Origin: Liopterus haemorrhoidalis
Taxonomy: Eukaryota; Arthropoda; Insecta; Coleoptera; Dytiscidae
Assembly (NCBI GenBank): GCA_963971575.1
Contig: OZ020622.1
Span: 20,524,879-20,588,878, forward strand
Direction of reading: 5' to 3'
DNA length: 64,000 bases
The notes beneath the pieces were generated by a model. The model saw only the letters and a program-made list of their open reading frames with translations. It did no database searches and was not told the DNA's origin. A program made the translations under genes and the position numbers. Below, one piece after another: positions 7,712-63,000 of the stretch. Position 1 is the stretch's first letter, and every line of letters begins with the position of its first letter.

Positions 7712-9329
7712 CTAGAGACGGTTCTTCCAATCATCATAGCAGTGCTGGAACTCGGATACTGGAATAACTTTCAGCTTGTCGGTTACAGACGTTTGAATGT
7801 TCTCGAGTGTCCCAAAATGACGTCCCTTGAGGTGATTTTTCAATCCTGGTAAGAGGAAAAAGTCACAAGGACTCAAGTTCGGTGAGTAAGGAGGAGCCAC
7901 AGGATTGTTTTTACTGGCCAAAATCTCGTTTATTGAAATTGATGTGTGATTATTAGATTTTTTCTCATCCACAATTCATTCGACAGAGTCTGATGAACGG
8001 TAGTGTAAGTCAAATTAAACTCTTCCCCGATCATTTGTAAGGGAGGTAAATTTGGTATTATTTCATAAATAAAATTTCATAAATAAATTCATTATAATCA
8101 TTCAATTAGAGTAAAATATTTAATCTGTTAAACGATACAAAAATAATCTATTGCTTAGAAAGGGCATTTAAGATAACGGTAGATTGTTTATTAATGCAAC
8201 TTGACACTTTGTCAAGGGAACATGAAAAGTGAATCGTAAATTATTGTGTTAAATAAATATACGTCAACCATAAGCACATAAATAATAATTAAATTCTGTC
8301 TGAGATATAAATATGATTCGGCTATTTTCTAATGGGATATTTATCTGAGTTATCATCAATAAATTATGAATTTTAAGATAGTACAAGACCGACAATCAAG
8401 AGGTGTTAAATGACATTTAACAGTTGGGCGATATAAGCATTTTCCAGGGTGGCCGCGTTTTAGGGAGTTCAGCTTAAGCCGTCGTATGGTTAAGACCATG
8501 TTTAAGAGTTGAGCCTAAAGAGTGAAGAAGTTAAGTCGTGTTTTTAAGTAGTGTGAGATTTTGTTAACCATGGGTTAGAGTCATTTAGTGTTGTCGGTCA
8601 AGTCAAGTAAAATGTAACAAGTAATTCCGTATGAACGTTAGTGTAGTGCCCAGCTATAGACATGTGAGAGACAAATGGTTGTAGAGGATGTCAGTCAGGA
8701 CTGTGGTGTCCAGTGGGTAAATTAGTGTTTGGTGTAAAGTGTGTCTAGTGTGTGTGACTGTGTATTTGGATTTAGCTGTATCGACGTAATTGTAAGTCTA
8801 GTGTAATCATGTAAATATTTAAACCGTAATCGTAATTAAAGTAGGTTAGTTAAAATGTTGAGTTTAAATGAAACAACCCTTAATCCTTCCAAGAATCGTA
8901 GCAACCAGCTAGCGGACTCATAGGGGGAGGGTCCAGACTTGATCCGCTCGCAAGTCTTGGAACCCATAATGTGAGGGATGTACAGAGTAAGTACAAATGA
9001 AATAAATAAATCAGCCAACCGTGACATTTCATTATTTACATATCGTAGCTCCCCACACATTCTGTCAACCGACAATCTGAACGCACAAGATCCCGGATTC
9101 TGTCGACATTTTCTTCCGTTCTTGAAGATGAAGGCCTTCCGCCGCGTGATTCATCTTCTATCAACTCTCTGCCTTGTGAAAATGCATTAAACCACCAAAA
9201 AACCTGGGTCCTTGGCAAAACACTGTCTTCGTAGGCCTGCTGAAGTTTTGCAAAAGTTTCCGTTGCACTGTACTCAAGCCTGAAGCAAAACCTGATGGCA
9301 CACCGTTGCTCAAAATAAATGTCACTCAT
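7712..9329 (-). pseudogene. Mariner transposase pseudogene, split by an LTR-like insert and internally deleted
   Basis: Minus strand. From ATG 9329 the mariner N-terminal helix-turn-helix is clear: R-F-C-F-R-L, then Q-A-Y-E-D, then the linker G-R-P-S-S-S-R-T. The frame stops where a 1-kb insert begins (9057). On the other side (8031 to about 7975) the second HTH resumes (E-F-N-L-T-Y-T-T-V-H-Q-T-L-S-N-E-L). The catalytic centre is then deleted, and the C-terminal part follows at 7972-7712 with P-P-Y-S-P-N-L-S-P-C-D-F-F, whose Asp is the third catalytic residue of mariner. Terminal inverted repeats were not found with confidence. Confidence 0.8.
8036..9057. mobile_element. Solo-LTR-like insertion, copy 1
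   Basis: 1022 bp starting TGTAAGGGAGG and ending CTCCCCACA, with CATT on both sides (8032-8035 and 9058-9061). It splits a mariner transposase; removing it restores adjacency of the two HTH halves apart from an old frameshift. A second copy with its own 4-bp duplication is at 56010-57023. TG...CA ends, a constant 4-bp duplication, about 1 kb length and no coding region fit a solo LTR of a Gypsy-type element. A TIR MITE is the alternative. Confidence 0.7.
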
Positions 9330-27842: not shown

Positions 27843-28158
27843 AAATGGGGAGAAGGAAAGGAGATAGGAGGAGGGGTGAAGAAATGGTTGGAAGGGAAAA
27901 GAATGGAATAAAATAAATTAAAGATGGGCGAGAGAACTGGAAGCAAGAAGGAAGGAGATCGGAGAGGGAAACCAGAATGAGAACAGGAAGTAGATGGGAC
28001 ATTGGAGCAAGAAGAAAGAAATGAGAAATAATATTGTAAATTGTATTGTATTGTTCGTTAATTATTTTTGGATTGATTTTTCTTTTTTTTGTAATGGTTA
28101 ATACCCTGAACGCCGCAAGGCCTCGGGAATAAAGAATATATATATATATATATATATG
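27843..28158 (+). mobile_element. LINE 3' end with AT-repeat tail, second copy
   Basis: Matches the reverse complement of 15123 to about 15435: purine-rich 3' region, gccgcaaggcc, gaataaagaa and an AT tail. Possible 18-bp flanking repeat tatatgaaaagcagagcc at 27755 and 28155. If so, the start extends left and its first 70 bp are unmatched. Confidence 0.65.
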
Positions 28159-28162
28159 AAAA

Positions 28163-28399
28163 GCAGAGCCGCAGTAAAGAAAACTTGCACTAGGGAAAGA
28201 GCCGTGTTTTGGCGCCCTTGGTAAATAAAAACAAGGTTCTTACCTCTCAAAATTTAAGTGATGAGCAAAAAAAAGGTCCTCGCCTCCCAAAATCCAAGTG
28301 ACGAGCAAAAAAAGGTCTTCACCTTTCAAAATCCAAGTGACGAGCTGTTATTTTCATTACTATAAACCAGTGTTTCCCAACGTTTTTCTCCTCGCGAAC
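28163..28399. repeat. Left arm of an inverted duplication (family E plus hAT end)
   Basis: Starts with gcagagccgcagtaaag, contains three polyA-type E subrepeats (reverse orientation), then ctataaac and the first 32 bases of the composite hAT. The right arm is 30048-30284. Confidence 0.85.
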
Positions 28400-29126
28400 C
28401 CCTTATAAAATCCGAACGAATTTGGCGAACCCCTGTGTCAGTGTTTCTCAAACTTTTTAAGTTCGCGGCACACTTTTGACGTGTAAACATTTTTTTGCGG
28501 CACAGCTATGAGTTATTGAATATAAGTTTAAATGGAAAATTGTAAAATTTCGCAGCACACTCCTAGAATTTCACGGCACACTAAAGTGCCGCGGCACACC
28601 AGTTGGGAAACACTGCCCTATGTAGTCGTTAATGACAGGAAAAAAAAACAATAAAATTTGGTAGAACATTTATTTTCCATGTACAAACATTAATAAGACT
28701 AGCTATTACTAAAATGATAGCTATAAAAAATAAATACAAAATCAATTCAACAAACCAACTGGTTCTTAGTTAAGCATACGTTAAATTTGAAAAAAACTTT
28801 TAGTTAAATGGGATATTTGTGGCTGTTTGATAGAACAAAGCAATTCAAAGTTTGGCTCAATATCCGACAATTTCAGTCTTAGATCAGGTTCTGCATTTAA
28901 CCTGTTTCTGTATTTATCTTTCAGATAAGTATATGTTGTGCAAAATGGTAATATAACTTCAATGGCTTTTTTTGACAAAACAGGATATTCATTTTTAATT
29001 TGTTTTTATGCGTTTAATTTTCTTTGGCGATTTAAAATTCCGTCATTACAATATTATTTTCGCGAACCCCATTTGTACACTCCGCGAACCCCCAAGGGTT
29101 CGCGAACCACCGCTTGGGAAACGCTG
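28368..29126. mobile_element. Composite hAT element, copy 2
   Basis: 759 bp, reversed relative to copies 1 and 3, with a perfect 8-bp duplication ctataaac (28360-28367, 29127-29134). The nested MITE is at 28439-28615 with flanks ccctgtgt/ccctatgt. Confidence 0.9.
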
Positions 29127-29134
29127 CTATAAAC

Positions 29135-30047
29135 CATTTACATTAATTTTAAATAAAATTAGCGTAACTCGGAGATTTTATAACAAAACCCGAAGAAACG
29201 ATGTTGAAACCCTGAGACCTGGTCACCCTGCCCATAATACGACCGTCTCTCTACTAATGTGAATTTTGATTTATAAATTTGGCATTGTGAATGCAGCATT
29301 ACTTTATTGAGCAATCGGGATTAAGAAGAAAATCTTTTGTCGGTACGCCTCACATACTAAATAAACAATTCTTTCTTATCAGTTGCTATAAAATTTTACT
29401 TAAAAATTATATGACTTAGTTACTTGGGTTTTTTTTTATTACTTTTTTTTTAATTTCACGCCTGTAAATAAAGTGTCCTGATGCAAGACCTTCAATTGTT
29501 TTGCGAGTAGCACGGATGACGTAGCTGTTTGCGGAGGTGTGCCATAGCACAAGCAAGGAGAGGTGTATGTATAGTACAGTCTGATTATTCTGCGACATGC
29601 CATTGTTTCCCAGGTCACCTATAGGAAAGTTGTAATTATGTTATTTCAAGTAACTGGACTGTGCATTTTGCTTCTTTCATTCAGCAATGAACTAGATTCA
29701 ACATGATAATAATTAAATGCTAATTTTATAGGACTGTAATTTTTGAGGACTTGGTTACAACCAAGAAAATTAAAACACTGAAGTGAAGCGTGAATTCTGG
29801 GGGGGGGGCAGGAAATATTTGAGGAGGGCATTATTTTTTTATCGATATTAATACATATGAAAATACAAGTGATTCTAAAATACAAATAATGACCCAACAA
29901 AAAAGGTCGCTATAATATTAGTGATGACCTAAAAAAAAGATCCTTGCTGCACGCCTAATAAATTTTCTCATAAGTAATTCTAAATAAGTATTTTTGGGGG
30001 GTCAACTGAAAGCCAGAACAATTTGGGAGTCGCCCCCCTGCACGTAA
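29135..30047. other. Spacer of the inverted duplication
   Basis: No gene recognised; polyG at 29800-29810, polyC near 30032, and an E-like scrap at 29900-29945. Confidence 0.4.
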
Positions 30048-30284
30048 GTTCGCGAGGAGAAAAAGGTTGGGAAACACTGGTTTATAGTAATGAAAATAAC
30101 AGCTCGTCACTTGGATTGATGAAGATCTTTTTTTTTGCTCGTCACTTGGATTTAGGGAGGTGAGGACCTTTTTTTTTGCTCATCACTTAAATTTTGAGAG
30201 GTAAGAACCTTGTTTTTATTTACCAAGGGCGCCAAAACACGGCTCTTTCCCTAGTGCAAGTTTTCTTTACTGCGGCTCTGCTTT
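30048..30284. repeat. Right arm of the inverted duplication
   Basis: Near-exact reverse complement of 28163-28399: 32 bp of hAT end, gtttatag, E subrepeats, gcgccaaaacacggc, ggctctgc. It is followed by a TA repeat (30288-30317) into which the retroelement inserted. Confidence 0.85.
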
Positions 30285-30317
30285 ACATATATATATATAT
30301 ATTTATATATATATATA

Positions 30318-30612
30318 AGTTATAGGACACCCCAAATCCAATCAAGCACGTAATCACGTACTATTATTTAAACATTTGTATTAATTCTATTTTTGTATGT
30401 TATTGTAATGAATACTTTTGTTATTCACAAAAGTCATATAAAAGAATGACACACACTAATTCTGTGTGCATAATATAATTGACCGTCTACGAGTCATGTC
30501 AATCTAACATATTGTAACCAAGTGTACTTATTGTATTAATAAAGTGTAATCGTTTGTAATCATCAAATAAAGTTTTTTTAAAAACTAATTTTCACGAACC
30601 TGAAAATTAACT
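30318..30612 (+). repeat. 5' LTR
   Basis: 295 bp. TATA-box-like TATAAAAG at 30437-30444 and AATAAA at 30538-30543 and 30566-30571 give a plausible promoter and poly(A) signals. Confidence 0.95.
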
Positions 30613-30622
30613 GGCGCAGTCG
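30612..30622 (+). other. Primer binding site (tRNA-Ser type)
   Basis: TGGCGCAGTCG, whose T is the last LTR base, complements the 3' end (CGACTGCGCCA) of insect tRNA-Ser, as used by the 17.6/297 group. Confidence 0.8.
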
Positions 30623-30973
30623 GTAGGATATTTCCAAAAGAAATAATAAATTTCGGAAATTTTTACACTCAATAGCAAAGTCATATTGATGTAAAAAATT
30701 CGTAAAAACCGTAAAACTAAGTGAACATTAGAAACGGTAACGCGAATGAACATTTAAGCTGTTAGTGAAAAAAGTAATTAACAGTTGGTGATTTACAACG
30801 TTAAAATAGACTGGAATTGTGTGAATTAAGTAACACAATCGGAAGATACTACATCGTGTATTCCCTCTTCTGTGTGGCAAAGGATCTGGCAACATCGTGG
30901 TGACAGAGCATCCCATCCCACTGCATCGAGCAATAGGACCCTTCCAGATGTTTTCACTTTTACTACTAATACT

Positions 30974-31038: not shown

Positions 31039-32064
31039 ATGGCTAATCCTCCTGTACCCGTCCTTAAAAAGGAATTTATTGAAATGATTCCAGAATTTAA
31101 AGGAGAAACTGAACTATTACCTCGCTTTTTAGAAATCTGTGGGAAACTAGTGGCAAGGTTTGCAAATTTGCAAAACCCAAATGATTTTCAAAACGAGTAT
31201 CTTATGTCTTCAATTAGAAGCAAAATAAAGGGTACTGCTGCAATTAATATTTCAAACAGCCAAATCAATACTTGGCAAGATTTGAAAGATGCACTTTTAA
31301 ATGCATACGCAGACAAACGTGATTGTCATACTTTAAATATTGAATTAGCCGAACTGAAACAAAACTATTCAGAAAACCCTTTCGATTTTTACATGCGTGT
31401 CCAAAAACATTTGAATTTAATAACATCATATGTACTTACGCATGAAGTCGTTGAATTAGCTACAATATTAAATCTTTATTTTAAAAAATTCTCTTTAAGA
31501 GTTTTTTTGAAAGGACTAAGAGAGCCCTTAGGTTCATTAATGAGAACTAAAAACCCATGCGACTTAAATGAAGCTTTAAATATATTAACCAATGATTTTC
31601 AAATGGTAGATTTTCGGTTCCAGAATGAAAAATCTAATTTTGCAAACAGCAATAAACAAAAGCTAAAATCGAATAACACATTTGCACCACAACCAATATT
31701 CCCGAAAAATACTACTTATAGAGGTTTTAATAACGGAAACGTTAATTATAAGAGTCAAAACTCTCAACAAAGTTACTTTAAAAATAAACCTCAAGGTCAA
31801 AACCAAAATTTTTATCGTGAACGCACCAATACTAATTTTACTAAACCAAGCACATCTCGCGCTGATAATCAAGCAACCCCAATGAGTACTTCCACGAAAA
31901 ATACGGTTAAACCAAAACAAAATTATTTTAAACCAGGTAACAAATTAGATTTTGTGTCTGAAGAATTATATAATGTCAATGAAAATGACGACGACGAAAT
32001 ATATAACTTAGAGGATACTTTTTTAGGAAAAATGGCCTCGCTAGAAGAAAATGCTTCGAACTAA
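31039..32064 (+). CDS. gag: Gag
   Basis: 341 aa, the size of errantivirus Gag. It would form the capsid-like particle around the RNA genome. The N-terminal two-thirds is a helical capsid-like region with W-Q-D-L-K and L-K-G-L-R-E-P-L motifs; the C-terminal third is basic and rich in Asn, Gln and Lys, followed by an acidic tail. No CCHC zinc knuckle is seen, usual for this group, so RNA binding likely uses the basic region. A -1 slippery heptamer lies 13 codons before the stop, and the stop overlaps the first ATG of pol (TAATG). Start chosen as the first ATG of the long frame; other ATGs occur upstream in the leader. Confidence 0.9.
   Translation: MANPPVPVLKKEFIEMIPEFKGETELLPRFLEICGKLVARFANLQNPNDFQNEYLMSSIRSKIKGTAAINISNSQINTWQDLKDALLNAYADKRDCHTLNIELAELKQNYSENPFDFYMRVQKHLNLITSYVLTHEVVELATILNLYFKKFSLRVFLKGLREPLGSLMRTKNPCDLNEALNILTNDFQMVDFRFQNEKSNFANSNKQKLKSNNTFAPQPIFPKNTTYRGFNNGNVNYKSQNSQQSYFKNKPQGQNQNFYRERTNTNFTKPSTSRADNQATPMSTSTKNTVKPKQNYFKPGNKLDFVSEELYNVNENDDDEIYNLEDTFLGKMASLEENASN
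32019..32025 (+). promoter_or_regulatory. -1 ribosomal frameshift site (slippery heptamer)
   Basis: T TTT TTA in gag codon register (act ttt tta). The pol frame is open from 32007, so a -1 slip here yields Gag-Pol directly. This is the X XXY YYZ form used by several retroviruses and gypsy-type elements. Confidence 0.75.
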
Positions 32065-35000
32065 TGATCCATAATGACCTTAAATCCGTACTACCATACA
32101 TAATATATCCAGAAAATAATCTTAAAGTTTTAATTGACACTGGTAGTTCGAAATCTTTTATTAAACCTAATATAGCTGTAAAATACTATAAAAAAGATAT
32201 TAAGAAAAACCCTTTTCGAATATGGTCAGCACATGGACATTCAAAAGAATATTATAGTACAGAAATACCAATTTCAAGTATTTTTAAAACAAAAAAAGAA
32301 ATGAAATTAAAATACCATTTGTTTGATTTCCATAATGATTTTGATGCATTATTAGGATTAGATAATTTAATATTATTAAAGGCTAATATTGATTTAAATA
32401 ATGGATATTTAATCACACCAAATGCTAAAACAAAAATCCTAAATATAAAGAAAAAAGTTTTAAAGGATCAATTTGAAAAAATTACAATTGAACCAAAATA
32501 TGAAAAAGTTGTTAAAGTACATATAAATAACATTGAAAACGGAGAAATAATAATTCCTCATTTTAAATATAAATATTTAGAAATTCTTCCATGTATTACA
32601 ACTGTAAAGAATAATATTGCATTATGCTCTATTTTAAATCACTCAGACGAAATTATAATTTATAACAAATATCTATACTTAGATGCTGAAAAGCTAGACG
32701 ACCACATTCAATGTGACTCGTATAATATAAATATGTTTAACGCAGAAAAAATTAAATTTGATGTTTCAAAAATACGTACCAATCACATGAACAGTGAAGA
32801 AAAAACCGTTATTTTAAAGTTAATCAAAGAATATTCTGATATCTTTCATATCGAAGATAAACAACTAACATTTACAAATCAAGTTAAGCATTCAATCAAT
32901 ACTAAAGATGATATGCCTGTATATACTAAAACATATAGATATCCAGAAGTCCACAAAAAAGAAGTTAGGACTCAAGTTCAAAAAATGTTAGACCAAAATA
33001 TTATTAGACCATCATGTTCGCCCTGGTCTTCACCAATATGGATCGTCCCAAAAAAACTAGACGCCTCCAGAAAACAAAAATGGAGAATAGTAGTTGATTA
33101 TCGTAAACTAAACGAAAAAACTATCGGAGACAAATATCCCTTACCAAACATAACAGATCTTTTAGATAAATTAGGTAGATGTCAATATTTTACAACCTTA
33201 GATCTCGCGTCGGGATTCCATCAAATAGAAATGTCAGAAAAAGACATTCCAAAAACCGCGTTTAATACAGAAAATGGGCACTACGAATATTTGCGAATGC
33301 CCTTTGGTTTAAAAAATGCACCAAGTACATTTCAACGCGTAATGGACAACATATTACGTGGTATTCAAAATGAAAATTGTCTTGTTTATTTAGACGATAT
33401 AATAATATTTAGTACAAGCCTACAAGAACACATTGTTAGACTAAAAGAAGTATTTAATAGATTGCGAAAAGCAAACTTTAAAATACAATTAGATAAATCG
33501 GAATTTTTACAAAAAGAGGTAGCTTATCTAGGACATATAGTCACGCCTCAAGGAGTTAAGCCTAACCCGGAAAAAATAAAAGCAATCCAAGATTTCCCTA
33601 TACCAAAAACCACTAAACAATTAAAAGGTTTTTTAGGATTAATTGGGTATTATCGAAAATTCATTAAAGATTTCGCAAAAATAACCAAACCCTTAACGAA
33701 ATGTCTAAAAAAAGACGCTACTATTAATATAAATAACGAAGAATATAAAAATTGTTTTAAATTTTGTAAAAATTTGCTAATAAATGAACCGATATTACAA
33801 TATCCGGATTTCGAAAAAGAATTTATCTTAACCACTGATGCAAGTAATTTTGCAATAGGAGCTGTGTTATCTCAAGGACCAATAGGTAAAGATTTACCAA
33901 TAGCTTATGCTAGTCGGACACTAAACGAATCCGAACAAAATTATTCCACAATTGAAAAGGAACTCTTAGCAATTGTTTGGGCTACAAAATATTTCCGTCC
34001 CTATCTTTTTGGTAGAAGATTCAAAATAATAACCGATCATAAACCCCTACAATGGTTATTTTCTCTTAAAGAACCCAGTTCTAAACTTGTCCGTTGGAGA
34101 CTAAAATTAGAAGAGTTTGATTATGAAATACTCTATAAAAAAGGCAAACTTAATGTTAATGCGGATACACTAAGTAGAATCCCTAAACAACAATTAGAAT
34201 ATATTAAATTAGAAGAAAACTTTTTAAGAAAATATCAAGAGTACCTAAACTCTAATAAAAATGAATTTGAAAAAGAAATAAAAGAAAGACATGATGACTT
34301 ATTTAACAGTCCCAAAAATCACAGTCTTGTGCATTGTATAAGTAATGATTTAAAAATGAATAAAGGAATTGCAAAACAATTCAAAGATAAATATAAAAAT
34401 GTAGACAAACTGTTTTTACAAAAACCATTATTATACAAGCCTTTGTATCTAAAAACACAAACCAGATACATAATATATCTAGTCACAAAAAGAAATTATT
34501 ATGATAAACCTAGCTATCAAGATATATTTTATAGTTTAACAAATTTAGCTGATTTTTGTGCCAAACACAATATCATAAATTTAAATATTCCTAAATTAGC
34601 ATGCGGAATAGACTCCCTAAATTGGAATAAAATAAAACCCATGATCCAATTTTTATTCAAAGATAGTAAAACAAATATAACTGTTTACATAAAACCAAAT
34701 AGCGCTGATATTAATATCACAGAAGGAGAAAATTTCGAACATTTTAAAAATTATATGGACAATTTCCATAAAGAATTAAAGAAAAAACGAAATGAAAATA
34801 CAAATAACACTCAAGAAAAAATAAACAACGATAGTAACGAAAATATAGATAACGTTAGTCTAATCGTTAACACAGAAAATAATAATGAAACGATAATAAT
34901 AGAAGATGATAATAACGAAAATGATAGTAATAATACTATTCATTCAAACGAGGAAAATCCTTTAATAGGTATACCAATTATAGACTGTCCTATAAATATC

Positions 35001-36380
35001 GGTAAAAACCAAATAATCGTATCATCAGTAGAGAACTCACCAAGTATACCTTCTGTTATAAAGTTATTTAATAACGAAAAACAAAGAATACAACTACAAA
35101 TATCAAAAATTAATATTGAATGTGAAATAATTAAATTCATTAGAGAATATATTGTACCTAAAATCAAATACCATCTTTATTTTGAAGATGATAACCTTTA
35201 TAGACCCTTTTGTTTAGTACTGCAGAAACATTTTAAAAATTCAGAAATTAGTTTCTTGAAATGCAGCAAACAACTAATTGATGTTATAGATGAAGACGAG
35301 ATAGTTCAAACTATACGCAACTATCATGAAGGTAAAGCAAATCATAGAGGTTTAGAAGATACCGAAAATAAAATAAAAAATGTATACTACTGGCCAAATT
35401 TAAGGAGAAGTATACAGACCTATATAAATAATTGTGATATATGTCAAATTAGTAAATATGACAGGAGACCCTTAAGACTAAAATTAAATGTCACTCCAAC
35501 AGCCACAAAACCCTTTGAATTAATTCATGTTGACACTATCACATTAGAAAATTGTAAATTTTTAACAATTGCAGATTCATTTTCAAAATATGCACAAGCA
35601 TATAAGCTCGACTCATCACAAGGCTTAGAAGTCGTTAATAAATTAATAATATACTTCAAACATCATGGCATACCAAACCAAATCATTTCTGATAATGGTT
35701 TAGAATTTAAAAATTCCCTAGTAAAAGAATTACTAGAAACGCATAAAATAAAATTGCATTTTATTAGTAGCCAACACCCTGAATCAAATGGCATCATAGA
35801 AAGATTTCATTCAACCCTGATAGAACACATCAGATTATTAAATAATCAAGAAATTTACAAACTTGATACAATTGAATCAAAAGTAAATTATGCCATATTA
35901 GCTTATAATGATACCTATCATTCAGTAACTAAACTCAAACCTTACGATATTATTAATGGTCATTTAGATCCTAAGGATCCATTTGATATAAATTTAGAAA
36001 CTAAATTAGTAAATGATTATATCGAAAAACATAGAGCCAAAATGAAACTATTGAACGAAGAAATTAATAAACGAATACAAAATAATAAAACCAAAGTCAT
36101 AACTAAAGAAAATGAAAAAAGGGAACTAATGCCCGAAATACCTCAAAATATTTATGTTAAAAATCGACAAAAACAAAGTAAAACTAAAAATAAATATGAG
36201 CCTCAGAAAATTGAAAAGTTAAATCCCAATTTAAAAACTGCCAATATTAAAAGAAAACATGGTAATAAAGTTGATAAAATTCACTTGTCTAATGTAAAAA
36301 GACCTCGAATTATAACTTATGAATTTAAAAATATTGCAGGACCGTCGAGTCAATCCACGGAACCGCCTTCACAAACATAA
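32064..36380 (+). CDS. pol: Pol: protease, RT, RNase H, TARG1-like macrodomain, integrase
   Basis: 1438 aa counted from ATG 32064. Protease: D-T-G at 25-27. RT: F-x-x-L-D-L-A-S-G-F region, and Y-L-D-D at 442-445 (catalytic Asp 444/445). RNase H: T-D-A-S with Asp 592, to A-D-T-L-S-R at 700-705. Residues 743-878 form a macrodomain: D-L-F-N-S-P at 745-750, H-C-I-S-N-D-L-K-M-N-K-G-I-A at 757-770, Y-L-V-T-K ending at Lys809, and P-K-L-A-C-G-I-D ending at Asp850. An Asn/Glu-rich linker (about 890-945) follows. Integrase: His1088, His1094, Cys1124, Cys1127 zinc site, then Asp1157, Asp1210, Glu1246 (D,D35E). No chromodomain; the C-terminus is basic. Expression is probably by -1 frameshift from gag. 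The frame is fully open, so the macrodomain is part of the expressed polyprotein, not decay debris. Confidence 0.93.
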   Translation: MIHNDLKSVLPYIIYPENNLKVLIDTGSSKSFIKPNIAVKYYKKDIKKNPFRIWSAHGHSKEYYSTEIPISSIFKTKKEMKLKYHLFDFHNDFDALLGLDNLILLKANIDLNNGYLITPNAKTKILNIKKKVLKDQFEKITIEPKYEKVVKVHINNIENGEIIIPHFKYKYLEILPCITTVKNNIALCSILNHSDEIIIYNKYLYLDAEKLDDHIQCDSYNINMFNAEKIKFDVSKIRTNHMNSEEKTVILKLIKEYSDIFHIEDKQLTFTNQVKHSINTKDDMPVYTKTYRYPEVHKKEVRTQVQKMLDQNIIRPSCSPWSSPIWIVPKKLDASRKQKWRIVVDYRKLNEKTIGDKYPLPNITDLLDKLGRCQYFTTLDLASGFHQIEMSEKDIPKTAFNTENGHYEYLRMPFGLKNAPSTFQRVMDNILRGIQNENCLVYLDDIIIFSTSLQEHIVRLKEVFNRLRKANFKIQLDKSEFLQKEVAYLGHIVTPQGVKPNPEKIKAIQDFPIPKTTKQLKGFLGLIGYYRKFIKDFAKITKPLTKCLKKDATININNEEYKNCFKFCKNLLINEPILQYPDFEKEFILTTDASNFAIGAVLSQGPIGKDLPIAYASRTLNESEQNYSTIEKELLAIVWATKYFRPYLFGRRFKIITDHKPLQWLFSLKEPSSKLVRWRLKLEEFDYEILYKKGKLNVNADTLSRIPKQQLEYIKLEENFLRKYQEYLNSNKNEFEKEIKERHDDLFNSPKNHSLVHCISNDLKMNKGIAKQFKDKYKNVDKLFLQKPLLYKPLYLKTQTRYIIYLVTKRNYYDKPSYQDIFYSLTNLADFCAKHNIINLNIPKLACGIDSLNWNKIKPMIQFLFKDSKTNITVYIKPNSADINITEGENFEHFKNYMDNFHKELKKKRNENTNNTQEKINNDSNENIDNVSLIVNTENNNETIIIEDDNNENDSNNTIHSNEENPLIGIPIIDCPINIGKNQIIVSSVENSPSIPSVIKLFNNEKQRIQLQISKINIECEIIKFIREYIVPKIKYHLYFEDDNLYRPFCLVLQKHFKNSEISFLKCSKQLIDVIDEDEIVQTIRNYHEGKANHRGLEDTENKIKNVYYWPNLRRSIQTYINNCDICQISKYDRRPLRLKLNVTPTATKPFELIHVDTITLENCKFLTIADSFSKYAQAYKLDSSQGLEVVNKLIIYFKHHGIPNQIISDNGLEFKNSLVKELLETHKIKLHFISSQHPESNGIIERFHSTLIEHIRLLNNQEIYKLDTIESKVNYAILAYNDTYHSVTKLKPYDIINGHLDPKDPFDINLETKLVNDYIEKHRAKMKLLNEEINKRIQNNKTKVITKENEKRELMPEIPQNIYVKNRQKQSKTKNKYEPQKIEKLNPNLKTANIKRKHGNKVDKIHLSNVKRPRIITYEFKNIAGPSSQSTEPPSQT
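34290..34697 (+). other. TARG1/OARD1-like macrodomain coding segment within pol
   Basis: About 136 residues (Pol 743-878), close to the length of a stand-alone TARG1 domain. Lys809 and Asp850 are 41 residues apart, the same spacing as the catalytic Lys84 and Asp125 of human TARG1, which removes ADP-ribose from glutamate. The H-C-I-S-x-D-x-x-M-x-x-G-I-A and P-x-x-x-C-G-x-D-x-L-x-W signatures are both present. The RNase H-integrase junction is also where some lentiviruses carry dUTPase, so it tolerates inserted enzymes. Activity is inference. Confidence 0.85.
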
Positions 36381-36620: not shown

Positions 36621-38036
36621 ATGAGAATTTATTCTAATGACAACAATGGACACATTAGAAATAAAAGAGGATTATTTAATGGAGTAGGAACTATATTTAA
36701 ATACTTAACTGGAAATCTAGATGTCGAAGATGGAAAACGCTTCGAAGAAATATTAAAACATGTCAAAGAAAATCAGTTCAAAATAGAAAATCAAATCCGA
36801 ATGTCCTATTCAATTAACAGTGATGTTATTAAAAATTTTAATGAAACAATAAAAAATATTAGTCATAATGAACTATTATTGCAATCACGAATCATGCAAT
36901 TAAAAGATTTTGCTAATAAACAAACACAACAATATGATATACTAATTTCAAAAGACATTTATAATCAATTAATTATAATGTACAATTCCCTATTGAATAT
37001 ATTACAAGATATTGAAAATTCAATTACGTTTTGTAAACTACAAACTTTGCACCCAAGCATTATTGAACCAAACGAATTATTTAAAGAATTAGTGAAAATC
37101 TCAAAATACTATAATAATATGTTACCATTCGAATTAAAATACGAAAACATATTAGACTTTGAATCAGTCATTAAAGTAAATTGTAAAATGGAAAAAGATC
37201 AAATTATCTATTTTCTTTCAATACCTATAAATTATGAGGAACATTTCAGTTTATATTACCTTCATCCTATTCCCTCATACTATAAAAGCCAATACGTAAC
37301 AATGTTACCGAATGTTAATTATTTATTAAAATCAGACCATGGAGCCATTCAAGCCCTGAGTAACAATTGCATGTTAAGTACAAAAATGTATCAGTGTTCT
37401 CAACACTTAAAACTAAATTATAAATCAAGTTGTGAAGAAAATATTCTTAAGTATGGTAATTCAAGTAATTGTCAATTCTTGAAATTAAATATTAAAAGAA
37501 ATCATTTAGAAATTATACCAGAAATCAATCAATACTTAGGAATATTTCCTAATAAGGAAGATATAACAATCACATGTAAAAATGAAGGAACTAAGCATAG
37601 ATTACAAGGAATATATTTAATTAAAAATGAAAATGATTGTAAATTACATTTTAAAGGTAACGAATTAAATTTCTTAAATAAAATACATGGGAAACCAATA
37701 GTATTTCCACAATTACTGGAAAACATAAAGTTATCAAAACTACTTAATTATACAGTGGAACTAAAATCATTAAATGTAAAAGAGTTGCCAAAATTTCCAC
37801 TAGAAATTGACGATAATTACAAAATCTCACGTCAAATGCATATCCCTAGTATTTGGACAATACTTCTGTATGGAAGCATAATAATTTTAATAATTGTATA
37901 TCTAATAAAAAAGAAATCTATGTTCAAGTATAGCTGCAACAAAAAGCAAAAACAACAGCAAGAAGAACCAAGACAAGAAAATGCAGTCTATGTAGAGATG
38001 CCAACATTACTTCCAAGGTCAAAACTTCTGGGATAA
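36621..38036 (+). CDS. env: Env-like membrane fusion protein (baculovirus F-type)
   Basis: 471 aa from ATG 36621; the same frame is open upstream to 36429 without an ATG, so the true start lies upstream or is supplied by splicing. R-N-K-R at residues 13-16 is a furin-type cleavage site, followed by G-L-F-N-G-V-G, the fusion-peptide start shared by errantivirus Env and baculovirus F proteins. Several Cys and N-glycosylation-like sites follow. One transmembrane helix is at about 412-431, then a short basic cytoplasmic tail. No signal peptide is present in this frame. A hydrophobic stretch beginning at ATG 36478 lies in another frame and stops at 36526-36528, so the N-terminus looks broken or needs unusual splicing. 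Confidence 0.85.
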   Translation: MRIYSNDNNGHIRNKRGLFNGVGTIFKYLTGNLDVEDGKRFEEILKHVKENQFKIENQIRMSYSINSDVIKNFNETIKNISHNELLLQSRIMQLKDFANKQTQQYDILISKDIYNQLIIMYNSLLNILQDIENSITFCKLQTLHPSIIEPNELFKELVKISKYYNNMLPFELKYENILDFESVIKVNCKMEKDQIIYFLSIPINYEEHFSLYYLHPIPSYYKSQYVTMLPNVNYLLKSDHGAIQALSNNCMLSTKMYQCSQHLKLNYKSSCEENILKYGNSSNCQFLKLNIKRNHLEIIPEINQYLGIFPNKEDITITCKNEGTKHRLQGIYLIKNENDCKLHFKGNELNFLNKIHGKPIVFPQLLENIKLSKLLNYTVELKSLNVKELPKFPLEIDDNYKISRQMHIPSIWTILLYGSIIILIIVYLIKKKSMFKYSCNKKQKQQQEEPRQENAVYVEMPTLLPRSKLLG

Positions 38037-38046
38037 GTTTTATCTT

Positions 38047-38057
38047 AAGAAGGGAGG
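38047..38057 (+). other. Polypurine tract
   Basis: AAGAAGGGAGG directly abuts the 3' LTR; second-strand primer site. Confidence 0.85.
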
Positions 38058-38353
38058 AGTTATAGGACACCCCAAATCCAATCAAGCACGTAATCACGTA
38101 CTATTATTTAAACATTTGTATTAATTCTATTTTTGTATGTTATTGTAATGAATACTTTTGTTATTCACAAAAGTCATATAAAAGAATGACACACACTAAT
38201 TCTGTGTGCATAATATAATTGACCGTCTACGAGTCATGTCAATCTAACATATTGTAACCAAGTGTACTTATTGTATTAATAAAGTGTAATCGTTTGTAAT
38301 CATCAAATAAAGTTTTTTTTAAAAACTAATTTTCACGAACCTGAAAATTAACT
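38058..38353 (+). repeat. 3' LTR
   Basis: 296 bp, equal to the 5' LTR except one added T in the run near 38313-38320. Confidence 0.95.
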
Positions 38354-57930: not shown

Positions 57931-59834
57931 TAGTGATGTGGCGGATCACATAAAAGCCAGATCCGCGGATACGGATACGGATTATGTGCGTCCTGATCCG
58001 CGGATACGGATACGGATCTTGCATTGCAGTAGAAAAACGAACGACCTTGAACGATAGTTTGATGTGTCGTGCTGTTCCTAAAAACCAAAGCATGTAAACT
58101 GAGGGTACAAACAATTAAAAAGATTGTTACCGGCGCCTATAAGCGCTTGCTAACATGCGCCGACCAACGAAAATAAATATTGCTTTATTTTCAATTATAT
58201 CCGGGCACGTAGAAGGCTTGTTGGCGCTTGAAACATACGCCGATGAGTAGCAGGAATCTTTGAAACATTATTTATCAGCTTACAAGACTGGCAATAAAAA
58301 AAATGTATTTAATGTTGCGAAACACCGACATTTACAATTACTTATTGGCAGAATAAATTGTATTAGTTTGTTATGAATTTGCTTTCCAACGTATAGTCTA
58401 CATAAGTGGCATGTTTTAGTAGATATATTTCTCCCCCAAACAATTACAGTAATATTTATTATAAACCAGGCCACGTTTTGATGAAGAAATTTTGGTAAAC
58501 AGGCACTGGTAATAATGTTTCTACGTATTTGTATTTGTGTCCACGTGTCCACTAAACGGTGTCAACAAGCGCTGACAACAGCAAACCTAATCAACCGCCT
58601 GTTTATAAGTACCGGAAACAATCTTTCTGCATGTTCATACCCGGACACACATTTTAGTTGAATTCAAAATCACTCACTTATTGTCTTTAATTAATTTTAC
58701 TCCAATGTTTAAGGTATAATAGACCGTTCTATAAATGAATATATATCTAAAATATGAATTTAAACGTCAGAGTAAAATTTACTCTTTCTTGAGCATTTTT
58801 AGACGCAAGCTTATACGAGGTCTGTTCAAAAAGTATCGCGAATTTTGTGTTTTTTCAAAAATTATTTATTTATTCAAGAATATCTATTTTGTCCCCTTCA
58901 AAGTAATCCTCACCAGATATTATACACTTGTGCCAACGTTTTCCAATCCTCGAAGCACTTGAAAAAATCATTTTTTGTGATCTTGTTCAGCTCCTCCTTC
59001 GATGCCGTCTTTATCTCCTCACTCGTAGCGTAGAGTCGTCCTTTCATGGGCCTCTTCAGTTTCGGGAACAAGAAAAAGTCACAGGGGGCCAGATCTGGGG
59101 AATACGGTGGCTGCGGCATTATTAGTGTGTTGTTTTTGGTCTAAATTGAGTAATTTTGGTACGAATTTCGCGGCGACCCGTCTCATGGGTAAAAATCGAA
59201 TGGCACGAGCCAATCGATATGTTTAGATCCTCATCAACTTCTCTAACGGTGATTCGACGATTGGCCAATTTTCTTCACTTCATCAATGATTTCGTCTGTT
59301 GTTGACGTGCTCGGGCGTCCGGCACGCTCTTCGTCGTTCACATTTTCTCGGCCCTCTGAGAACATTTTGTACCACCGATAAACGTTGCTTCGGTCCAAGG
59401 TAACTTCACCATATGCCACAGTCAACAGTCGGAATGCGTCCGCGCACTTAATTTTGTTTTTCACACAAAATTTGATACAGATTCTTTGATCCATTTTTTG
59501 GTATAGGCAAAAATCGAAGACGAGCCAAAACACGTGCAAGCAAAGCAACTGTCAAAAATTAACTGAACATTGAAAATGGCCGAACACGGCATATGTGAGA
59601 GACATGAGTACCAACATAACGCCACAAAAAAATCGAAAATCGAATATACGTAACCCGTGGAAATTCAAAATTCGCGATACTTTTTGAACAGACTTCGTAT
59701 TATAACGAATTCAATGTATCTATATGAGATCCGTTTAAGATCCGCTTTGGAGAAACGGATACGGATCTGGATACGGATTTTTATTTTTTACGGATCATCC
59801 GCGGATACTGATTCGGAGTTCCGGCACACCACTA
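57931..59834. mobile_element. hAT-like element carrying a nested mariner
   Basis: Ends TAGTGATGTGGCGGATC and CGGCACACCACTA; 8-bp flanks gtaaatac/gtacatac (7 of 8). Both subterminal regions repeat gatccgcggatacggatac. Without the nested mariner (58816-59697) it is about 1.02 kb. No transposase recognised. Confidence 0.75.
58816..59697 (-). mobile_element. Mariner deletion derivative, copy 2
   Basis: 882 bp, TA on both sides, same TIRs as 10328-11234. Minus-strand ATG at 59494 (M-D-Q-R-I-C-I-K-F-C-V-K) opens the first HTH and the E-R-A-G-R-P-S-T-S linker, to a stop near 59245. The third-Asp motif P-P-Y-S-P-D-L-A-P-C-D-F-F is at about 59080. The deletion begins about 30 bp later than in copy 1 (after A-A-K-F-V-P-K-L-L) and ends further into the C-terminal part. 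Confidence 0.88.
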
Positions 59835-61282: not shown

Positions 61283-61849
61283 ATATACCAGCAGCGCCGG
61301 CGCTAGACTTTTTTACTGCCACAGCAAAGATTTTTTCTGGTCTGGTGATAAAAGTTAAAAACGAATTTGATATACTTGCATTCAACATTTTGATATTTTA
61401 ATTCAGTTTTTCTGCTTCTCTGATCTTGACAAAGCAACATTGTCAATGGGAAAAAACTGGCTTAGATAGATATAATCTCACTTACGTTTGTCCCTATGCC
61501 TTGTTGACAGTAACTGCAAATGCTGTTATAATAGGAAACTGTCATTAAATTGGAACAAATATTAATTTATTTATTTATTTTAAATAAAATATTCGTATTA
61601 GTATAATTTATAGTACGAATATTAATGCACTTTTAACATATTACGTAATTAAAAATTTAGTCCTAGAAGTGAGGAAGCTTCTAAACTATTTTCCTAATTC
61701 TGCTGTCCTAGAGTTTTACTAAACTTAACCTAACCTAATTACTTAGTTTTTAGGTATACAGTACTTTATTTTCCCCCAAACATTAGTCCATTAAAAATAT
61801 AGTAATAAACTCTAGTAAATACGATCGATTTAGGTAATTAGGTTAGGTG
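61283..61849. other. Unannotated AT-rich sequence
   Basis: cctaattctgctgtcc at about 61690 recurs at 48155. No gene recognised. Confidence 0.4.
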
Positions 61850-63000
61850 GACGAATTTGGCATCCCTAGTAAATTTATCAAGATGACTATGGTGTTGGTG
61901 TCGGGATCCATAAGCAGAGTGAAAGTAGGAAATCTTTTGTCACAGCCTTTTGAAATTCATACTGGAGTCAAACAAGGAGATGCCACTTCACCTTTGCTGT
62001 TTAACCTCGTGCTGGAGATGGTGTTACGAAAAGCCCAAGATGCCAACCAACGTGGTCTAGTACTCAATGGATACCACAAGATTTTAGGGTATGCAGATGA
62101 CCTGGATATTATTTCAAATAAGGTTGAAGACGTAATATACCTTACTAACCTTATTGATGTCGAAGCTCGTAAAGTAAGACTCATCATCAGTAATGAAAAA
62201 ACCAAGTATCTCATAAGGTTGAAGACGTAATATACCTTACTAACCTTATTGATGTCGAAGCTCGTAAAGTAAGACTCATCATCAGTAATGAAAAAACCAA
62301 GTATCTCATTGTTAATAGACGCAGTCATGAGTACACGACCGACTTAAAAATTAAGGACAACACTTTTGAGAGAGTTTCTACTTTCAAATACTTGGGCACC
62401 ATGGTAAATCAGGTGAATATGATACAGCAGGAAATAACGAATAGAATTAAAGCTGCAAATGCATCGTATTTTGTACTTGGTCCCCTCTTCAAAGCGAAAC
62501 TCTTGGCGAGGAGCACCAAGATCAGGTTATACCAAGTTATAATACGTCCCGTACTTATGTATGGCTCCGAAACATGGACCATAACAAAGCGAGATCGACA
62601 ACACCTCCTAGTTTTCGAAAATAACATATTACGTAGAATCTTTGGTCCCATTCAAATTAATGGTGAATGGATAATCCGGAAGAACAAAGATATCCGAGAA
62701 CTGTACTCAAGGCGAAGTATCACCCAAGAAGCAGACTATTACAGTGGATAGGAGACGTTATGAGGATGAGAGAGGACAGAATGGTTAGGAAGATATGGGA
62801 AGGAAGATTGAATACCCGTCGACCAGTGGGAAGACATCGCAAGACATGGAGAGATCAGCTAACCGAAGATCTAGCAAGTATTGGTATACGGGGTACTTGG
62901 CAAGACTTGACAATGAATAGATCGAGATGGAGGGCTTATGTGAGTGAAGCCAAAAGTCAATCTGACTGATAGTGCCCAAAGAAGAAGAAGAAGAAGAAGA
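61850..63000 (+). pseudogene. RTE-type LINE, 5'-truncated, better-preserved copy
   Basis: Reads D-E-F-G-I-P, G-V-K-Q-G-D-A-T-S-P-L-L-F-N-L-V-L-E, Y-A-D-D-L-D-I-I (62090-62101, catalytic Asp kept), then is broken by a 95-bp tandem duplication (62122-62310). Coding resumes: T-F-K-Y-L-G-T-M, Y-G-S-E-T-W-T-I-T-K, I-L-R-R-I-F-G-P. After another shift near 62745: L-L-Q-W-I-G-D-V-M-R-M and G-R-H-R-K-T-W-R-D-Q-L-T-E-D-L, stop near 62967. The tail is gaa repeats (62982-63000). The 5' part including endonuclease is missing. Confidence 0.85.

Follow-up and report, generated by a model that had tools for sequence, protein, structure and literature searches.

A predicted TARG1-type macrodomain inside the Pol polyprotein of an errantivirus-like provirus from the beetle Liopterus haemorrhoidalis

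We analysed a stretch of 64,000 nucleotides, hereafter the window, from the genome of the dytiscid beetle Liopterus haemorrhoidalis (GenBank assembly GCA_963971575.1, contig OZ020622.1, positions 20,524,879 to 20,588,878 of the forward strand). The window holds an errantivirus-like provirus whose Pol polyprotein carries an additional domain between RNase H and integrase. An earlier, sequence-only reading of this DNA had taken the domain for a macrodomain of the TARG1 type, and sequence comparison, profile search and predicted fold now agree in supporting that identification, with both catalytic residues kept. Coordinates are positions in the window, and all features of the provirus lie on the plus strand.

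The provirus is bounded by two long terminal repeats (LTRs), a 5′ copy of 295 nt (30318..30612, AGTTAT...TTAACT) and a 3′ copy of 296 nt (38058..38353), which differ only by one T within a run of T. TATA or TA repeats lie outside both. Errantiviruses are recognised by a TATA target site duplication and by LTR ends AGT...ACT; ends of this type are present here, with the length of the duplication made ambiguous by the TA-repeat setting. Behind the 5′ LTR stands a primer binding site, TGGCGCAGTCGGTAGGA (30612..30628), which we take to be of the tRNA-Ser type, and the 3′ LTR is preceded by a polypurine tract, AAGAAGGGAGG (38047..38057), named by eye. Between them are three open reading frames (ORFs): gag (31039..32064, 341 aa; Pfam Retrotrans_gag at 20.1 bits, under the cut-off of 24.1), pol (32064..36380, 1438 aa) and env (36621..38036, 471 aa), the last of the baculovirus F type (Baculo_F, 64.2 bits). 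The pol ORF is in the -1 frame relative to gag and its frame is open from 32007; the resulting overlap of 58 nt (32007-32064) contains a T6A run (TTTTTTA), a possible -1 frameshift site. Pol itself has a protease active site, DTG, at residues 25-27 (32136..32144; RVP_2 at 20.9 bits, cut-off 20.3), the reverse transcriptase motif LVYLDD at residues 440-445 (33381..33398; RVT_1) and an RNase H TDAS motif, and Ty3 is matched both by the reverse transcriptase/RNase H piece and by the integrase piece. Gypsy, 17.6 and TED are errantiviruses, and the gag-pol-env plan with an F-type env is the same in that group and in this element. Judged from gene plan and LTR features, the element has the errantivirus plan. 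Scans of viral_contigs with the reverse transcriptase/RNase H piece (7 matching stretches) and with a degenerate reverse transcriptase pattern returned no errantivirus sequence.

The macrodomain occupies Pol 738-878 (34275..34697), as delimited by phmmer, profile and predicted fold. The sequence-only reading had placed it at 34290-34697, and that span is indeed in frame (Pol 743-878) and stop-free; its start was slightly late, since the first predicted strand covers Pol 739-742, and we therefore set the start at Pol 738. The flanks are those it had described: the end of RNase H, ADTLSR, at Pol 700-705 (34161..34178), and the HHCC zinc site of the integrase from His1088 (Pol 1088-1128, 35325..35447; Integrase_H2C2, 55.5 bits). 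On its 3′ side the domain is followed by a low-complexity linker rich in Asn, Glu and Asp (34698..35000, end set by eye) and then by a further stretch of about 110 Pol residues (35001-35324) that may be the usual errantiviral pre-integrase region. For the part of Pol between macrodomain and integrase, no PDB sequence relative was found at E 1 and no NCBIfam match at 0.1.

The RNase H match ends at 705 and the integrase match begins at 1085, which leaves 380 residues between them (the match edges being approximate), compared with 93 in Ty3 (1008 to 1101, 7q5b). Of the extra length relative to Ty3, the macrodomain makes up about 140 residues and the linker about 95. One could suppose that the domain is a structural spacer or a folding module of the polyprotein whose chemistry is incidental, and the linker and the stretch of about 110 residues do also separate it from the integrase zinc site. 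A spacer would have no need of a conserved pocket, however, and Ty3 makes do with 93 residues at the same place, so that we regard this explanation as very improbable. Still further down the scale stands an assembly artefact in which a host TARG1 gene was joined to a provirus; nothing was found to speak for it. RNase H, the domain and integrase share a single stop-free frame, and the GC content at third codon positions (GC3) is similar, 0.201 in the macrodomain and 0.185-0.194 in the remainder of pol; on these grounds we rejected the artefact. As the domain is stop-free and its GC3 is near that of the remaining pol, there is also no sign of a very recent graft.

The identity of the domain is carried by several kinds of comparison. 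A phmmer search of all PDB sequences matched it to human TARG1 (2.7e-28) in an alignment that covers residues 3-133 of 136 without a gap and has 52 identities in 131 residues. Strong matches were confined to the five TARG1 sequences of human origin in PDB (E 2.7e-28 to 3.6e-28), the next being a Thermosipho DarTG at 0.0057. The sequence-only reading had named a profile search and a fold comparison with TARG1 as checks. A profile of 89 relatives, from which the query was left out, scored 127.4 bits (1.2e-38) on the domain and at most 5.7 bits elsewhere across 603 six-frame pieces of the window, while the best score over 20 shuffles of all six-frame pieces was 8.2 bits; a chance or low-complexity match is thereby ruled out. 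Consistent with this, the fold of the predicted model is nearest to that of TARG1 (4j5q, 4j5r). The likeness to human TARG1 (also OARD1 or C6orf130; 4j5q, 4j5r, 4j5s; the ALC1-like class) extends over the whole predicted fold and includes Lys84 and Asp125. The human protein is a stand-alone cellular enzyme that takes ADP-ribose off its targets and has Gly41-Ala42 in one of its loops, whereas the query is fused within Pol and has Asn-Lys there.

Lys84 and Asp125 are proposed as the catalytic dyad of TARG1 in excerpts of PMC9411070; an excerpt of PMC7050489 gives position 125 as Glu125. Gap-free alignments place Lys809 of Pol (34488..34490) on Lys84 and Asp850 (34611..34613) on Asp125, and the spacing of 41 residues between them is the one the sequence-only reading had pointed out. 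Both columns are invariant among the relatives (Lys in 89/89, Asp in 89/89).

Where might such a domain have come from? A nine-sequence profile, A1, retrieved 3260 relatives from a protein database at 1e-5, and at E 0.01 there were TARG1-like matches in 34 phage and 24 plasmid records (best E 1e-18). The phage and plasmid proteins, such as those of Lactobacillus phage LP65 and Fusobacterium phage Fnu1, are 30-40% identical to the query in eight aligned cases and stand alone, whereas the query domain lies inside Pol. Four of the loci are single annotated TARG1-like genes of large Lactobacillus, Fusobacterium and Bacillus phages, again at 30-40% identity. The best phage family bears the PHROG label 'phosphatase', perhaps a legacy of Appr-1''-p processing, which we did not use as functional evidence.

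In a tree of 60 rows (the query, human TARG1 and those 58 of the 120 relatives listed out of 3260 that remained once a 70% identity filter had been applied), human TARG1 is the partner of the query with 100/90 support, and the query has an end branch of 1.83 changes per column. Alternative pairings with three other rows were 0.5 to 4.5 log units worse and were not rejected (approximately unbiased test, p-AU 0.41-0.49). The best pairwise score was likewise that of human TARG1 (114 bits, 39.7% identity; the next, 108 bits and 35.9%), although among the matches listed some phage or bacterial relatives are about as near in identity, with 40% and 39%. Human TARG1 also shares 5 of 41 rare states of the query, compared with 4 for the best of 89 others and 0.84 on average. 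Collectively, these comparisons lean towards an animal origin for the domain, human TARG1 being the one animal sequence compared. The sequence-only reading had proposed that the element captured its domain. As the stretch comes in addition to what Ty3 has there, capture is likely, either from a cellular gene or from a phage gene; it is the pairing with human TARG1 that has three competitors in the tree.

The way in which the domain has diverged bears on whether it does anything at all. Among columns conserved at 90% or more in the 89 relatives, the query keeps 26/34, as against 21/102 consensus residues in the other usable columns; in the subset of 55 relatives below 70% identity the figures are 26/34 and 23/102. 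Where conservation is at least 99%, it keeps 14/16. By these column counts, which are not a selection test, the pattern is that of a diverged yet constrained domain. The capture might still have been accidental and functionless, a passenger in one lineage. Within the window only one copy was found, and its LTRs are nearly identical, so that the intact frame taken alone is uninformative on selection. Moreover, part of the long branch may predate the capture. Yet a domain that is 40% identical to human TARG1 and ends a branch of 1.83 has kept nearly all of its most conserved columns, and such divergence around a retained active site suggests constraint. We thus think a mere passenger quite unlikely.

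Several observations count against reading the domain as an active TARG1-type enzyme. Pfam Macro on its own reached 19.2 bits, under its curated cut-off of 22; this model matches only seven of the nine members of profile A1 at E 0.01, and thus covers TARG1-like members poorly. The predicted fold leans on the 89 homologues in its alignment. Eight of the 34 highly conserved columns are altered in the query. Naming each change from the family consensus, two are adjacent, Gly41 to Asn (Gly in 89/89 relatives) and Ala42 to Lys (Ala in 86/89, Lys in 1), and form Asn766-Lys767 (34359..34364) in the loop before G-I-A; five others are Tyr28 to His, Gly66 to Tyr, Ala116 to Asn, Gly121 to Ala and Leu124 to Ile. 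The eighth, Asn80 to Tyr, is common to the query and human TARG1, the 89 phage and bacterial relatives having Asn. With eight conserved positions altered, including a neighbouring pair in this loop, activity is not to be assumed, and catalysis may be weaker or altered. Finally, eight pieces of the element (seven of them also as protein) gave no second match at 1e-3 in the remaining window.

Searches beyond the window were similarly unproductive. No confirmed relative was found among 8 stretches of viral_contigs matching query piece P0001 or among 96 stretches of genome_contigs matching Pol 733-884. Single-query protein searches gave none at 1e-3, either for Pol 719-889 scored within an 849-aa piece (513 candidates) or for P0001 (3 candidates); the database was the one from which profile A1 drew its 3260 relatives.

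The surroundings of the provirus bear marks of other mobile DNA. An inverted repeat at 28136-30308, with arms of 139 nt that are 99% complementary and 1895 nt apart, ends nine bases before the 5′ LTR, within TA repeats, and looks like a terminal inverted repeat element adjoining the provirus. Two ORFs on the minus strand (9036-9329 and 59243-59548) encode the HTH_48 domain of Mos1-type mariner transposases, and a reverse transcriptase fragment on the plus strand (61847-62230; RVT_1) resembles long interspersed nuclear elements by eye.

A second macrodomain class, DarG, bears on the substrate. DarG is an antitoxin paired with DarT, and excerpts of PMC7050489 and PMC9411070 give its counterpart of the dyad as Lys only. 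Where TARG1 has G-L-D and the query G-I-D, DarG (5m3i, 5m31, 5m3e) has G-N-G-G. As Asp850 is kept at that point, we ruled out membership in DarG. On the curated DarG model the domain scored 55.1 bits, the cut-off being 250; with 338 positions, that model sets a mark that a lone macrodomain could scarcely reach. The altered loop is another matter: in DarG it reads M-G-K-G-(I/V)-A, and Lys767 thus puts the DarG state beside a TARG1 dyad. According to an excerpt of PMC9411070, Lys34 of SCO6735 contacts the substrate, and replacing it with Glu left almost no activity on ADP-ribosylated DNA but lowered that on protein only slightly. By residue numbering, Lys767 and Lys34 are probably at the same position. 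It is this alignment with the DarG Lys, and the likely equivalence to Lys34, that gives a lead, though no more than a lead, towards a nucleic-acid substrate.

On the observed domain, its predicted fold, its two catalytic residues and the uninterrupted Pol, all directly supported, we build a model that infers the capture of the domain, its packaging, its hydrolytic activity, the substrate and the benefit to the virus. With moderate confidence, we propose an active mono-ADP-ribosyl hydrolase that is made and packaged with Pol and, while reverse transcription or integration proceeds, acts on proteins or nucleic acids of the virus. An errantivirus-like provirus would have captured an intron-free TARG1-type macrodomain, fused in frame at the junction of RNase H and integrase. 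Made at Pol stoichiometry and packaged, the hydrolase would act within the particle or the pre-integration complex, stripping ADP-ribose either from Glu or Asp residues of the viral proteins or from the nucleic acid of the virus, with Lys809 and Asp850 used as TARG1 uses Lys84 and Asp125. Reverse transcription or integration would thereby be protected. The sequence-only reading had gone on to suggest that the domain could counter the marking of particles, integrase or integration sites by host PARP.

The same fold could instead serve as a reader of ADP-ribose, tethering integrase to PARP-modified chromatin with little hydrolysis, much as the chromodomains of chromoviruses tether integrase. The domain lies upstream of integrase, from which an acidic linker of low complexity separates it, and it combines a predicted ADP-ribose fold with a loop containing two unusual residues. 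A pure reader would have no need of the two hydrolase catalytic residues, both of which are kept, and insertion in TA repeats, a known target preference of errantiviruses, fits their plain target choice. We therefore consider a reader unlikely and return to the hydrolase. Building on Lys767, a bolder version of it is doubtful but slightly easier to entertain than the reader: in this gypsy family with env, the eraser would be directed at nucleic acid, combining a TARG1 dyad with a DarG-like Lys to act on viral cDNA or RNA ends or integration intermediates, and might counter a defence that restricts retroelements by ADP-ribosylation in animals without interferon.

Viral macrodomains are known from other settings. 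Those with which coronaviruses and alphaviruses counter host defence are of the MacroD type (excerpt of PMC7050489). Fish epsilon-like endogenous retroviruses are reported to carry macro-domain ORFs (Basta et al. 2009, cited in an excerpt of PMC4977317); these elements, like ours, join retroviral genes with a macro domain, which that part of the review describes as additional open reading frames. The sequence-only reading knew of no such domain in errantiviruses. Apart from the fish elements, the titles and abstract openings listed for errantiviruses, gypsy elements or retroviruses showed no macrodomain, in a search that did not cover the leading survey, by Chary and Hayashi (eLife 108449). 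Term searches of PMC9040795 and PMC10435555 gave none.

Non-primate lentiviruses have a dUTPase at the same Pol junction, an extra enzyme of unrelated fold and chemistry. If our interpretation is correct, the macrodomain would join the lentiviral dUTPase among the few enzymes known as insertions in Pol. More broadly, a TARG1-class eraser in a gypsy-type Pol would mean that retroelements are restricted or marked by ADP-ribosylation in the host, a link that would then be open to direct test.
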